Shown here: piece after piece, positions 3,238-38,250 of the stretch | Layout: each line of letters starts with the position of its first letter | How positions within the stretch are numbered: position 1 is the first letter of the stretch | Virus record (IMG/VR): IMGVR_UViG_3300047318_000172 | Location: 1 to 38,250 of that record | DNA length: 38,250 bases | Direction: 5' to 3' (one strand) | Source: a virus | Notes under the pieces: generated by a model | What the model was told of the DNA's origin: nothing | The model's input: the letters and a program-made list of their open reading frames with translations, nothing else | Databases searched by the model: none | Program-made: the position numbers and the translations under genes

Positions 3238-3266
3238 ACTATATAGGAATCTGAGGGAATTGAGAA
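3238..3266 (-). promoter_or_regulatory. Early leftward promoter with operator in the spacer
   Basis: Leftward strand: TTCTCA (3266-3261), a 17-base spacer, then TATAGT (3243-3238); the start codon follows after 7 nt. The element AATTCCCTCAGATTCC (3261-3246 leftward) occupies nearly the whole spacer. A protein bound there would block RNA polymerase directly. This is the best candidate for the main lytic promoter repressed in the lysogen. Confidence 0.65.
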
Positions 3267-3421
3267 GTCCCATGTTTGGGAATGTGACCCAAGCGAAGTG
3301 TTTCCGCAGGTCAAACCAATATCCCAAAGGTGTAATTACAGGCCGTGTTTCCCACCGAAGGGGCAGGATTCCCCAAGGATTGCCAATGGACATTCCCTAA
3401 CTATTCCTAGACCATGACGAC
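3267..3421. promoter_or_regulatory. Immunity intergenic region with further ATTCCC half-sites
   Basis: Besides 3246-3261, this gap holds CATTCCCTAACTATTCC at 3391-3407, GATTCCCC near 3367, and GGGAATGTG near 3279, all sharing the ATTCCC core in either orientation. The copy at 3391-3407 lies 14 bp upstream of the repressor start. TTGCCA near 3381 and TATTCC at 3402 could be the rightward promoter boxes, but the fit is only moderate. No Shine-Dalgarno precedes the repressor ATG. Confidence 0.5.
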
Positions 3422-3832
3422 ATGAAGGATCAGGAAACACTCGAAGCACTCGGCAAGCTCATCGCAGCAGCCCACAAAGACAAGTACCCCTCCCGCCGGC
3501 AGTTCGCCCTCGCCGCGGAAGTCGACGTCAAGACGATCACGTCCGCGGAGAAGGGTACGCGGGAACTACACCCGAACTCCCAGCGGCGCATCGAACAGGC
3601 CCTCGGCTGGCGGAAGGGTTCCATCGAAGAGATCTGGGAGCACCGGGACGAGATCGACCCGGCCGCCCTGACCGTGGCGGAGATGGAGCGCGGCGTCACG
3701 CCCGCGACCTGGGCCCCGGGCGGTGAGGAGCCTCACGTCAACCGGGCGTCACAGTTGACCGATGAGGAGCTGTTGGCCGAACTTTCATATCGTTTCCGTA
3801 ACTATAAAGTCCGACTTAATGGCGAGTCCTAG
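3422..3832 (+). CDS. Immunity repressor candidate, XRE-type helix-turn-helix
   Basis: 136 residues. The segment from about residue 18 to 60 (SRRQFALAAEVDVKTITSAE, then RELHPNSQRRIEQALGW) is an XRE/Cro-CI helix-turn-helix. The C-terminal half is acidic and probably mediates multimerisation; no peptidase S24/LexA motif is visible, so induction by RecA cleavage is not expected. It is the first rightward gene, diverges from the Cro-like gene, and precedes the integrase module, which supports the repressor role. Start by position; no clear Shine-Dalgarno is present, so the mRNA may be leaderless. Confidence 0.78.
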   Translation: MKDQETLEALGKLIAAAHKDKYPSRRQFALAAEVDVKTITSAEKGTRELHPNSQRRIEQALGWRKGSIEEIWEHRDEIDPAALTVAEMERGVTPATWAPGGEEPHVNRASQLTDEELLAELSYRFRNYKVRLNGES

Positions 3833-3957
3833 CGGATCGTTAGCGCACTAATCTAAGGGCACATACCTCCGACGGTTTAGGGAATGTGGTGGAAGGCTTA
3901 CGCTTACCTCACCGCACCACACAAGTGGCGGTGGAACATGGGAAGCAAGGCCGCATC

Positions 3958-4197
3958 ATGCACAACACACTGACCCCTGGGGGGCCTCTCGAACATCACC
4001 ACTGGCAAGGACTCGCGGGGCTCGTCGCCGCGCACCGCCCGGAATGGCAGGTATCGGACATCCTCGCGAAACTGAAGATGTGCGATGACCTGCAGACCTA
4101 CCCGGACCTCGCCCGGACCGCGCTCACCGTCGCCATGGACCCGGCGTCAAAGTCGCCCGCGTCGATCCACTTCGCCGCCGCCGGACTGAGTAGGTAA
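3958..4197 (+). CDS. Hypothetical protein of the immunity region
   Basis: 79 residues beginning MHNTLTPGGPLEHHHWQGLA. ATG chosen because GAAGCAAGG lies just upstream; a GTG at 3886 would add 24 residues. The rest is helical (LAGLVAAHRPEWQVSDILAK, then TYPDLARTALTVAMDP). This pattern, often annotated hypothetical, is common beside integrases in actinobacterial genomes. The upstream gap (3833-3957) holds another ATTCCC half-site at about 3878-3888. Confidence 0.65.
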   Translation: MHNTLTPGGPLEHHHWQGLAGLVAAHRPEWQVSDILAKLKMCDDLQTYPDLARTALTVAMDPASKSPASIHFAAAGLSR

Positions 4198-4205
4198 TGG
4201 GACGC

Positions 4206-4234
4206 TTGACAGGGTGTCATGACACCGTTAGTGT
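4206..4234 (+). promoter_or_regulatory. Integrase-operon promoter with palindromic RHH operator
   Basis: TTGACA (4206-4211) and TAGTGT (4229-4234) are 17 bp apart. The perfect 14-bp palindrome GGTGTCATGACACC (4213-4226) sits between them. A closely similar arrangement, with palindrome GGTGTATATACACC, precedes the opposing zinc-finger/RHH operon at 6223-6252. Best explanation: operator for the RHH proteins encoded in the two operons. Confidence 0.75.
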
Positions 4235-4264
4235 TTGAGCATCACCCCGACGAAAGGTAACACC

Positions 4265-4504
4265 ATGAACACCACCATCGAAGAGGCGCCGACCTTCACC
4301 GAAACCGAACTGTTCGCCAATGACGGCAAAAACGGAGCAGTCGGCGTCTATCGCACCATGTACGGCAGCGCTGTCGCGGACCAGACTATTTCCGTGGTTA
4401 TCGAGTACGACAATGTCCACGAGGCCGGGACTAACCTGACGATCGAAGAAGCCGCGAGGCTCCACGCCGCACTTGGGCGTCTCATCGCGCAGGCCGGTGT
4501 CTAA
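4265..4504 (+). CDS. Hypothetical acidic protein, first gene of the integrase operon
   Basis: 79 residues, beginning MNTTIEEAPTFTETELFAND. Start fixed by GAAAGG 7 nt upstream. It looks like a small alpha/beta domain (VYRTMYGSAVADQTISVVIE, then a C-terminal helix EEAARLHAALGRLIAQAG). No family recognised. It follows the palindrome-bearing promoter, and its end overlaps the RHH gene by 8 bp, so the three genes to 5724 form one operon. Confidence 0.72.
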   Translation: MNTTIEEAPTFTETELFANDGKNGAVGVYRTMYGSAVADQTISVVIEYDNVHEAGTNLTIEEAARLHAALGRLIAQAGV

Positions 4505-4646
4505 GGGCACCACGCGCCGCAGCGTCCGCGTCGACTCCGCACTCTGGGAGACGGCGCGGATTATTGCGTTGGAGCGCGGAGAGAACCTGTCAGACGTCAT
4601 CCGGGAGGCGCTGACCGCCTATATCAAGGCCCGCAATGAGGGTTAA
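4497..4646 (+). CDS. Ribbon-helix-helix (CopG/Arc-type) regulator, copy 1
   Basis: 49 residues from a GTG start. TRRSVRVDSALWETARIIA supplies the DNA-contacting strand and first helix, and ERGENLSDVIREALTAYI the second helix with the conserved SDVIREAL pattern of RHH dimers. It overlaps the preceding gene by 8 bp and the integrase start by 11 bp, so it should be made together with the integrase. It is strongly similar to the protein at 5673-5846 on the other strand. Predicted to bind the palindrome at 4213-4226 and regulate the operon. Confidence 0.82.
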   Translation: MSKGTTRRSVRVDSALWETARIIALERGENLSDVIREALTAYIKARNEG

Positions 4647-5724
4647 TGACCTGTGGGTCCGGAAGGACCGGACCCGCAACACGCAGTACGGGAAAGGTAA
4701 ACGCTGGCAGGCGGTATGGTCCGAGGCCGGGACTGAACGGAAGAAATCCTTCGCCGTCAAAGACGCCGCGAAAGCACACCTAGCGTACGTCGAACACAAT
4801 CAGCGGGCCGGGACGTACGTGTCCCAGGACCGGGGCCGGGTGTTCGTCCGGGACCTGATCGACGCATGGGTGGACACGCAGATCCATCTCAAGCCCTCCA
4901 CGATGGCGGCCACCCGCTCCGACGTGCGCGCCACGATCAAACCCTACTGGGGGGATAAGATCCTCGCCGACATCACCCGCGCCGACGTCCAGGCATGGGT
5001 GTCCGGGATGACCAAAGCCGCGAGGACCGTCGACACCATTTATGGCCGGTTCCGGAAGTTCCTGAACTGGTGCGTGGAGGAGGGCCGGATCGTCGCGTCC
5101 CCGGCCAAAGGGGTGAACCTCCCCAAGGGCCACAAGCGGGAGCACATCTTCCTGACCGTGGCGCAGGTCGGCCGGCTCGCCCGGGAGATTGACGGGCAGT
5201 TCGCGGACCTTGTCTGGATGCTCGCGACGACCGGGCTGCGGTTCGGGGAGGCCGCGGAGCTCCGGACCCGGGACGTCGACCTGAAGCGCGCCCGGGTGAG
5301 GGTCGCCCGGTCCGTAACCGAGGTCGACGGGGCAATGGTGATCGGGCCGCCGAAGAACGGCCGGGAACGGACCGTGCCGCTGACCGCGTTCATGACCGAA
5401 CGGCTGACGTCCAGGCTGCAGGGCCGGGGCCGGGACGTCCTCGTCTTCCCCTCCGAGCGCGGCCACCATCTGCGCTCGAACAATTTCAAGTCCCGCGAAT
5501 ACGATCCGGCGGTGGAGGCGGCCGGGCTCCCTGCCGGGCTCTGGGTCCACGACCTCCGGCACACCGCCGCATCCCTGGCCGTCCACTCCGGCGCCTCGGT
5601 GAAGTCCGTCCAGCGGATGCTGGGGCACGCCTCCGCGGCGCTCACGCTGGACATTTATTCGGGCCTGTTCGATCAGGAGCTCTCCGACGTCGCCGCCCGG
5701 ATGGATGCGCTGCTCTCCGCGTAG
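4636..5724 (+). CDS. int: Tyrosine integrase
   Basis: 362 residues. N-terminal arm-binding domain (about 1-60, including YGKGKRWQAVW), core-binding SAM-like domain (about 64-160, VRDLIDAWVDTQIHLKPST), and catalytic domain (about 170-362). Active-site residues visible: R202 (TTGLRFGEA), K240 (PPKNGRERTVPL), H305 and R308 (HDLRHT), H331 (LGHAS) and nucleophile Y341 (DIYSGL). All expected residues are present, so it should be functional. It would recombine attP near 6332-6380 with the host tRNA-Val gene. The last 52 bp overlap the convergent RHH gene 5673-5846. Confidence 0.95.
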   Translation: MRVNDLWVRKDRTRNTQYGKGKRWQAVWSEAGTERKKSFAVKDAAKAHLAYVEHNQRAGTYVSQDRGRVFVRDLIDAWVDTQIHLKPSTMAATRSDVRATIKPYWGDKILADITRADVQAWVSGMTKAARTVDTIYGRFRKFLNWCVEEGRIVASPAKGVNLPKGHKREHIFLTVAQVGRLAREIDGQFADLVWMLATTGLRFGEAAELRTRDVDLKRARVRVARSVTEVDGAMVIGPPKNGRERTVPLTAFMTERLTSRLQGRGRDVLVFPSERGHHLRSNNFKSREYDPAVEAAGLPAGLWVHDLRHTAASLAVHSGASVKSVQRMLGHASAALTLDIYSGLFDQELSDVAARMDALLSA

Positions 5725-5846
5725 GTCCGGAGCGCTTCCCGGATCACGTCAGAAAGGTTCTCTCCGCGTTCGGTGGCGACCGCCTTCGCCGCCTCCCACA
5801 GTCCGTCTTCGATGCGGACCGTGCGGTGCGTGGTGCCGCGGCTCAC
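5673..5846 (-). CDS. Ribbon-helix-helix regulator, copy 2
   Basis: 57 residues from a GTG start overlapping the upstream stop (GTGA). THRTVRIEDGLWEAAKAVA and ERGENLSDVIREALRTYAES mark an RHH fold and align closely with copy 1 at 4497-4646, including an identical ERGENLSDVIREAL block. It has a longer Ser-rich C-terminus. It is the second gene of a leftward operon with the palindromic promoter 6223-6252, and its 3' end overlaps the integrase 3' end convergently by 52 bp. Likely a regulator of its own and the integrase promoter; an accessory recombination role is possible. Confidence 0.8.
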   Translation of the reverse strand: MSRGTTHRTVRIEDGLWEAAKAVATERGENLSDVIREALRTYAESSASIRAATSESS

Positions 5847-6184
5847 GCGGCAACCATCAGGCTTCGGGCCATGTCTTCGATCGTGACACGCTCGCCGTCT
5901 ACGGTTTCCACGAGGCCGTCGTGACCGACGCAGCACATGAACTCGACCTCTTCGATCATCTCGGCGAGCGTCTTTGTGGAGAGTTCGGCGGTCCGGGCGG
6001 CGCGGGCTTCTTCGTTCCGGCGGGCGGCGGCTGACTTGCGGCCCTTCGCAGCGGCGATCTTTCGGGCATATGCGCCGGCGGTGTAGGTGTTGACGCCGGT
6101 CCCGTCGCAACCGAAGCAGGTTCCGATGGCGAAGTGTCCGGTGCCGCCGCACTTCCAGCAGTTCACTGTGGTCAGTTCGCTCAT
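5843..6184 (-). CDS. DnaJ-type zinc-finger small protein
   Basis: 113 residues. Two CxxCxGxG units near the N-terminus (CWKCGGTGHF and CFGCDGTGVN) match the DnaJ central zinc finger; no J domain is present. A basic Ala/Arg-rich helix (KIAAAKGRKSAAARRNEEAR) follows, then an acidic helical C-terminus with a CC pair. RBS AAGGCAAGAC precedes the ATG. It is transcribed with RHH copy 2 from the palindromic promoter next to attP, so a role in control of integration or excision is possible but unproven. Confidence 0.75.
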   Translation of the reverse strand: MSELTTVNCWKCGGTGHFAIGTCFGCDGTGVNTYTAGAYARKIAAAKGRKSAAARRNEEARAARTAELSTKTLAEMIEEVEFMCCVGHDGLVETVDGERVTIEDMARSLMVAA

Positions 6185-6222
6185 TGTCTTGCCTTCCGTC
6201 TTCGGCCTGTTCCGATATGAAG

Positions 6223-6252
6223 AATCTATCAGGGTGTATATACACCTGTCAA
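6223..6252 (-). promoter_or_regulatory. Leftward promoter with palindromic RHH operator
   Basis: Leftward strand: TTGACA (6252-6247), then the perfect 14-bp palindrome GGTGTATATACACC (6246-6233), then -10 TAGATT (6228-6223) at 18 bp, or ATAGAT at 17 bp. Same architecture as 4206-4234. Drives 5843-6184 and RHH copy 2. Confidence 0.75.
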
Positions 6253-6271
6253 TAGGGACTCCTACTGAGTC

Positions 6272-6295
6272 CCGGACCGCCATAAAACCGCCATG
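6272..6295 (+). repeat. attP arm-type repeat, left
   Basis: 24 bp identical to 6530-6553. Each copy contains two direct repeats of ACCGCCAT with an 11-bp period. The pair flanks the tRNA-derived core, which is the expected layout of integrase N-terminal-domain (arm) binding sites in the P and P' arms. Confidence 0.72.
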
Positions 6296-6331: not shown

Positions 6332-6380
6332 CCACGTTTACACCGTGGATGTCATCGGTTCGATCCCGGTAGGACCCACA
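6332..6380 (+). other. attP: attP core: 3' half of tRNA-Val(TAC)
   Basis: 6332-6348 forms a perfect 5-bp anticodon stem (CCACG/CGTGG) with loop TTTACAC, anticodon TAC (Val). Variable loop 6349-6353 follows, then a T-arm (ATCGG, loop TTCGATC, CCGGT) at 6354-6370, a 3' acceptor strand AGGACCC and A at 6378. No matching 5' acceptor strand (GGGTCCT) or D-arm lies upstream, so this is not a whole tRNA gene. Tyrosine-integrase phages carry such a 3' tRNA copy so that integration restores the host gene. Strand exchange probably occurs in the anticodon-loop region. Confidence 0.88.
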
Positions 6381-6411
6381 GATTGGATTACCCCGTCAGT
6401 CCCCGGCGAGT

Positions 6412-37997: not shown

Positions 37998-38250
37998 GAT
38001 TCCTCCCAGCGGGCCTTGACGGTGCCGAGGATCATGCTGATCTCCCAGAACAGGGTGATGAGGAGGGAGCCGCGGACGTGGTCGGTGTTGTCGACGGTGC
38101 CGGCGTCGTTGACCCGGAGGTTCGGGTGAGTGGCGGCGTCGATGGTGCGGAGCTCCCGGGCGTAGGAGACGAGCTGGTCGGTGTCGGTCCAGCGGAGGTC
38201 TTTGTCGATGATCCAGGCGAGGCGGCGGGTGAGGGTCTGCAGTTCGGCTT
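37994..38250 (-). CDS. Hypothetical protein, C-terminal part of the gene split across window ends
   Basis: Continues the gene at 251-1 if the molecule is circular; the repeat supplies 133 bp of shared sequence. The C-terminus (TDHVRGSLLITLFWEISMIL, then GTVKARWEES) is helical. Complete product about 128 residues. At the overlap this copy has IDAATHPNL where the other has IENATHPNL. Confidence 0.75.
   Translation of the reverse strand, partial: AELQTLTRRLAWIIDKDLRWTDTDQLVSYARELRTIDAATHPNLRVNDAGTVDNTDHVRGSLLITLFWEISMILGTVKARWEES
38118..38250. repeat. Terminal repeat, right copy (pairs with 1-133)
   Basis: Matches 1-133 with four mismatches, all in the 10 bases corresponding to positions 12-21; the last 112 bases are identical. 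Marks the join of a circular or circularly permuted genome. Confidence 0.9.

Follow-up and report, generated by a model that had tools for sequence, protein, structure and literature searches.

Putative palindromic operators and a putative two-residue recognition code in ribbon-helix-helix cassettes, two of which flank a phage integrase

In a high-GC temperate tailed phage, the tyrosine integrase (int) gene is flanked on opposite strands by two small ribbon-helix-helix (RHH) genes, each of them behind a promoter that holds a palindrome. The first-pass annotation of this DNA read the arrangement as a cross-regulating pair that would set the integrase against an opposing zinc-finger/RHH operon next to attP. 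Do the two operons act on each other in this way, or are they separate passengers of the phage genome? The window, i.e. the whole stretch of DNA analyzed here, is 38,250 bp long and is a complete IMG/VR virus record (IMGVR_UViG_3300047318_000172). Its two ends (1-133 and 38118-38250) repeat each other directly over 133 bp apart from 4 mismatches, which suggests a near-complete genome, possibly assembled as a circle. The integrases nearest to that of the window belong to Glutamicibacter, Gordonia, and Arthrobacter phages.

Layout of the integrase locus

The genes and sites had been described correctly (Table 1). RHH1 and RHH2 are paralogous (57% identical) and are the sole two members of their family in the window genome. 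Each is the second gene of an operon behind a TTGACA promoter with a palindrome in the spacer, and each overlaps the stop of gene 1. The palindromes share the GGTGT/ACACC half-site and differ in their centers (CATG versus ATAT), and the locus does adjoin attP, in the form of an attP-like tRNA 3' end. On the plus strand, the repressor gene is followed by a small gene (3886-4197) and then by the RHH1 operon, in which promoter 1 precedes the genes for a 79-aa protein, RHH1, and the integrase; the int start overlaps the RHH1 stop, so that int ranks third in this operon. On the minus strand, reading away from attP, promoter 2 with its palindrome GGTGTATATACACC is followed by the gene for a zinc-ribbon-like protein of 113 aa and then by RHH2, which is convergent with int and overlaps its final 52 bp.

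The only terminator-like match between the repressor operon and the RHH1/int operon is the operator palindrome. Near the repressor gene there is a cluster of GGGAAT(G) motifs, on either strand (at 3255, 3278, 3368, 3392, and 3880, in the regions 3255-3398 and 3878-3886), which are candidate operators of the phage repressor.

Table 1. Features of the integrase locus, in window coordinates
Feature	Position	Strand	Basis
Putative repressor	3422-3832	+	PHROG 37057 5.8e-5; relatives
Promoter 1: TTGACA 4206-4211, 17-nt spacer, TAGTGT 4229-4234	4206-4234	+	Sequence reading
Putative operator 1, GGTGTCATGACACC, center CATG, inside promoter 1 spacer	4213-4226		R.[TS]-type RHH with CATG in 15/15 distinct pairs
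Cargo gene 1, 79 aa, overlaps RHH1 start	4265-4504	+	No family match found
RHH1, 49 aa, GTG start, putative contact strand R7-R8-S9-V10-R11	4497-4646	+	PHROG 6506; RHH fold (modeled)
Tyrosine integrase	4636-5724	+	Phage_integrase 3.7e-23; relatives
RHH2, 57 aa, GTG start, putative contact strand H7-R8-T9-V10-R11	5673-5846	-	PHROG 6506
Putative mobile cassette 2, extent	5728-6254	-	79.5% DNA identity to L037 cassette
Cargo gene 2, 113 aa, CxxCxGxG zinc-ribbon-like, stop overlaps RHH2	5843-6184	-	zf-CCHC 0.0024 and DnaJ_CXXCXGXG 0.16, both under cut-off
Promoter 2: TTGACA 6252-6247, 18-nt spacer, TAGATT 6228-6223	6223-6252	-	Sequence
Putative operator 2, GGTGTATATACACC, center ATAT, inside promoter 2 spacer	6233-6246		[HV]RT-type RHH with ATAT in 9/9 distinct pairs
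attP-like core (tRNA 3' end)	about 6345-6382		Common to int relatives without cassettes

Both RHH proteins matched the Arc-like repressors of PHROG 6506 (2.6e-8 for RHH1 and 9.8e-10 for RHH2), and both scored under the cut-off of 20.5 bits against Pfam RHH_1 (17.9 and 17.6 bits; E of 0.003, also under cut-off, for RHH1). The AF2 model (pLDDT 88.8) has helices at 14-27 and 31-48; it represents a monomer, and strand pairing requires the dimer. Among the PDB structure matches listed (Foldseek), almost all were RHH proteins, PutA, CopASO, CopG, and Arc among them, with TM-scores mostly of 0.6-0.8 and no E-value below 0.001. As modeled, the proteins would thus have the strand-helix-helix fold of the MetJ/Arc/CopG superfamily, of about 45-50 residues. 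The chain stops soon after helix 2 in both RHH1 (49 aa) and RHH2 (57 aa), leaving no toxin-wrapping tail. Few family members were found in isolate phages and plasmids, and chromosomal ones were also few, with 8 hits when 396 genomes from the phylum were searched at E 1e-6.

Operators and the residues that track their centers

Only two GGTGTN4ACACC sites, GGTGTCATGACACC and GGTGTATATACACC, occur in the 38,250-bp record against 0.05 expected, and none of 100 shuffled records reached two. Nine RHH-less contigs with related integrases, which were not selected for operators, contain no GTGTN4ACAC site in 293 kb. Given this and the expected number, chance was ruled out as the origin of the palindromes. 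The layout of promoter 1 is repeated in L041/L312 and in L003. A third operator was considered at 3329-3342, where GGTGTAATTACAGG fits with 2 mismatches, and was rejected, since the frequency of such matches is within chance for the window. This site contains a 10-bp perfect palindrome, TGTAATTACA, and sits between a divergent cro-like gene and the repressor gene. Between operator and cargo start, a ATCGGAACAAGCCGA-like leader that could form a small hairpin is present in the window (about 6190-6222) and at L024, L037, L042, L061, L064, L071, and L075.

When IMG/VR was searched with promoter plus palindrome (palindrome-only scan; 75 loci), a family RHH gene was found no more than 1.8 kb downstream at 22 of the 29 loci with a GC content of at least 0.58 and at 2 of the 46 below it. 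The tandem-operator scan gave RHH genes at 81/106 high-GC loci versus 0/5 lower-GC ones. Scans with a fixed center returned mainly low-GC chance matches, with an RHH gene at 7 of 14 new high-GC loci. Relatives found by protein search carried GTGTN4ACAC at 12 of 16 loci (two pairs being near-duplicates), and the half-sites of two protein-found loci, L310 and L311, differ from GGTGT/ACACC. The constancy of the half-site is partly by design, because it was fixed in the DNA scans. Within 14 RHH-bearing genomes, mostly picked for their operators, every GTGTN4ACAC site lies no more than 1.8 kb from an RHH gene. Since RHH gene and palindrome co-occur in many unrelated phages, we take the palindromes to be, almost certainly, the operators of the RHH proteins.

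The tandem-operator loci (L112-L187) form a separate branch with PNQPKTPxR..R proteins, operator centers most often 23 bp apart, and an RHH gene that often comes first, some 50-150 bp downstream of the operators. They possibly belong to other kinds of mobile element.

The DNA-pattern scans yielded 107 distinct RHH/operator pairs, in which each operator was matched to the RHH gene behind it and residues were numbered as MSKGTT-X7-R8-X9-x-R11. Across these pairs, the four central operator bases track RHH residues 7 and 9. Arginine at position 7 goes with CATG when residue 9 is threonine or serine (15/15) and with CGCG when it is alanine (1/1); [HV]RT proteins have ATAT (9/9), H7 with S9 has ACGT (21/23), Q9 has AGCT (17/17), and N9 has mostly centers of the ACCT, AGGT, and ACCC types. 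As predictors of the center, columns 7 and 9 outrank all other RHH columns, in that order. We then compared proteins pairwise, without tree correction and with the 107 pairs not all phylogenetically independent: for 3,823 protein pairs less than 30% identical in the helices, the proportion with a common center was 84% given agreement at positions 7 and 9 and 5% otherwise, or 95% versus 4% once the fixed-center scans were taken out. Proteins more than 60% identical had a common center in 98% of cases with both residues in agreement versus 42%.

Six RHH proteins from the protein search agree with the code when their upstream DNA is read: L096 (RRS) has TGTCATGACA upstream, L093, L094, and L098 (all LRN) have AGGT/GGGT centers, and L081 and L085 (both HRT) have GTGTATATACAC. 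The fixed-center scan loci indicate that the code is not one-to-one. It is many-to-one, with ATAT also found with LRS and HMS, and CATG also with LRS, VKS, and QRT; proteins with leucine at position 7 fit it loosely.

In Arc, Gln9, Asn11, and Arg13, at alternate strand positions, make the base contacts (PMC12645479). Our own alignment would equate residues 7, 9, and 11 of the present family with these three, and a profile alignment places Thr29 and Arg31 of omega repressor at positions 9 and 11. By this comparison, alternate strand residues appear to set base recognition here as elsewhere in the RHH family. RHH1 (R7, S9) is of the CATG type and RHH2 (H7, T9) of the ATAT type, each matching its own operator. 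Orthogonality is therefore predicted: CATG should be the site recognized by RHH1, and ATAT that recognized by RHH2.

Cassettes in related and unrelated genomes

Ten IMG/VR contigs have integrases 69-89% identical to that of the window and the same attP core. Nine of them are without both cassettes, RHH and operator being absent contig-wide. Most int relatives carry repressor, small gene, int, and attP in this order, and int starts at the stop of the gene before it or overlaps that stop. Operator 1 recurs in L312 (the contig of L041), where a cargo gene like that of the window, RHH1, and int follow it as they do here; cassette 2 is absent from this contig, 29 bp standing in place of the window's 570 bp (5706-6275). 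The L312 orf in the position of cargo gene 1 encodes 75 aa and is similar, as judged by eye, in the C-terminal half.

A different phage, L037, contains the RHH2 cassette complete from promoter through RHH (79.5% DNA identity), with a homologue of cargo gene 2 as its cargo, between RusA-like and DnaB-like genes. In L003, another cassette lies among structural genes. The cargo differs among cassettes: it can be absent altogether, and in MrSmee it amounts to about seven genes. By comparison, the cassettes resemble phage morons, with a promoter of their own, absence from close relatives, and presence in other phages.

On plasmid pROB02 (L102), a NaeI-type restriction-modification system has as its neighbors two paired operators (GGTGTATAGACACC/GGTGTCTATACACC), an orf of 69 aa, and an RHH gene that had not been annotated. 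In L313, an HNH-endonuclease-like gene (5119-5736; PHROG 8660, 8.6e-19) lies between int and attP, where the window has cassette 2. With different inserts at this spot, the flanks of int look like an insertion hot spot.

Interpretation and relation to known systems

We consider it highly probable that the locus consists of two mobile cargo cassettes that are independent and repress themselves, and that one of the two has taken in int as a third gene. The palindromes, their association with RHH genes, the residue-center code, the absence of the cassettes from int relatives, and the second location of cassette 2 are established by sequence comparison. We infer binding, repression, their kinetics and, for this phage and L312, the placing of int under RHH1 feedback. 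In each cassette, a strong sigma70-type promoter whose spacer contains a single 14-bp operator would drive a small cargo gene and, translationally coupled to it, the gene for a minimal RHH repressor. On entry into a naive cell, the DNA would be transcribed from this strong promoter by host RNA polymerase, giving a burst of expression. RHH protein from the second gene would then occupy the spacer palindrome and keep the operon low by negative feedback, with the two-stranded sheet of the dimer seated in the major groove of the cognate operator so that RNA polymerase is blocked. With the GGTGT/ACACC half-site used family-wide and the four central bases set largely by residues 7 and 9, RHH1 would act on CATG and RHH2 on ATAT, leaving the cassettes insulated from one another. 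As third gene in the window and in L312, int is probably subject to RHH1 feedback and perhaps also reached by read-through from the repressor operon. RHH2 is antisense to the end of int, and the transcriptional interference that this makes possible counts against independence.

The integration switch, in which RHH1 and RHH2 would both bind both operators and the integrase would be set against the zinc-ribbon/RHH2 operon, agrees with the shared half-site, the relatedness of the two proteins, the place of RHH1 in the int operon, and the antisense position of RHH2. However, contact residues and centers differ in line with the family code; as this difference in centers would be a difference in specificity, the pair is predicted to be orthogonal, and the proposed cross-regulation was not borne out. 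Cassette 2 stands away from any integrase in L037, and the regulator pair is not conserved with int and attP, with nine of ten relatives having neither cassette and L312 RHH1 only. On this ground we rejected the switch, to which we assign a very low probability; what stands of the proposal is the operon common to RHH1 and int, seen again in L312. A search of related genomes for two RHH copies together with palindromic promoters had also been suggested: RHH genes and palindromes do co-occur widely, but no second genome with two operator-plus-RHH cassettes was present among those examined.

The pairing of two small overlapping genes, with predicted DNA binding by the RHH protein and autoregulation, would also suit toxin-antitoxin modules, in which the cargo is the toxin and the RHH protein both antitoxin and autorepressor, the more so as RHH antitoxins are near in fold. 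We hold this to be just as improbable as the switch: neither RHH protein has the long toxin-wrapping tail after its second helix, the cargo is unrelated between cassettes, its number of genes varying between 0 and about 7, and this variability speaks against toxin-antitoxin pairs; the cassettes gave no match to a toxin family or in PADLOC. Least likely of all, to the point of being nearly negligible, is that the palindromes serve another factor (the phage immunity repressor or a host regulator) with the RHH genes as mere passengers. The near-palindrome GGTGTAATTACAGG in the repressor intergenic region could be read in this way, though it is at chance level, but the sites occur only beside RHH genes and their centers track RHH residues 7 and 9 in many phages.

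With two independent cassettes as the preferred reading, the locus is better read as a pair of insulated passengers than as an integration switch, the integrase being under the promoter of one of them. More broadly, we think it likely that orthogonal RHH autorepressors are naturally numerous in high-GC phages, have the GGTGT half-site in common, and read different 4-bp centers by a simple two-residue code (7 and 9). Mobile cargo cassettes would diversify this code, allowing several to coexist per genome, and a resident prophage might possibly silence only incoming cassettes of the same specificity. RHH repressors are common, but to our knowledge no general rule has connected the residues of their strands to their operators; with some 100 natural protein/operator pairs and a two-residue code that can be read from them, such a rule can be tested directly. 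In the open-access literature, we found no description of operators, a cassette layout, or an RHH code of this kind. The isolated family members infect actinobacteria, for which the family would supply ready-made orthogonal repressors, and small phage cargo genes would be seen to travel with private regulation.

Among known systems, related proteins are encoded by the "Arc-like repressor" genes of Gordonia, Mycobacterium, and Arthrobacter phages (PHROG 6506 and 3180), often located between tail genes and integrase (e.g. Phistory gp44, BritBrat gp32, Majeke gp56, and MrSmee gp27). In MrSmee, an ATAT operator heads the operon. These genes are annotated without operators, specificity, or function, and some, such as those of Majeke and Hedwig, use other half-sites. 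Type II toxin-antitoxin operons with RHH antitoxins are alike in being small bicistrons with an RHH gene; they differ in the antitoxin tail and in a constant toxin family. Arc of phage P22 and the MetJ/Arc/CopG repressors share the fold, and the likeness extends to a minimal, phage-encoded RHH protein with alternate strand residues at the contact positions. Unlike that of Arc, the operator here is a 14-bp perfect palindrome with a common half-site and a variable center, and the gene is the second or last of a cargo operon rather than a core lysis-lysogeny regulator. The closest solved sequence is the omega repressor of plasmid pSM19035 (PDB 2bnw and 1irq; E 0.001), which binds heptad arrays and doubles as a partition protein (PMC9499535), whereas a repressor of the present family goes with one palindrome or two and a single local operon.
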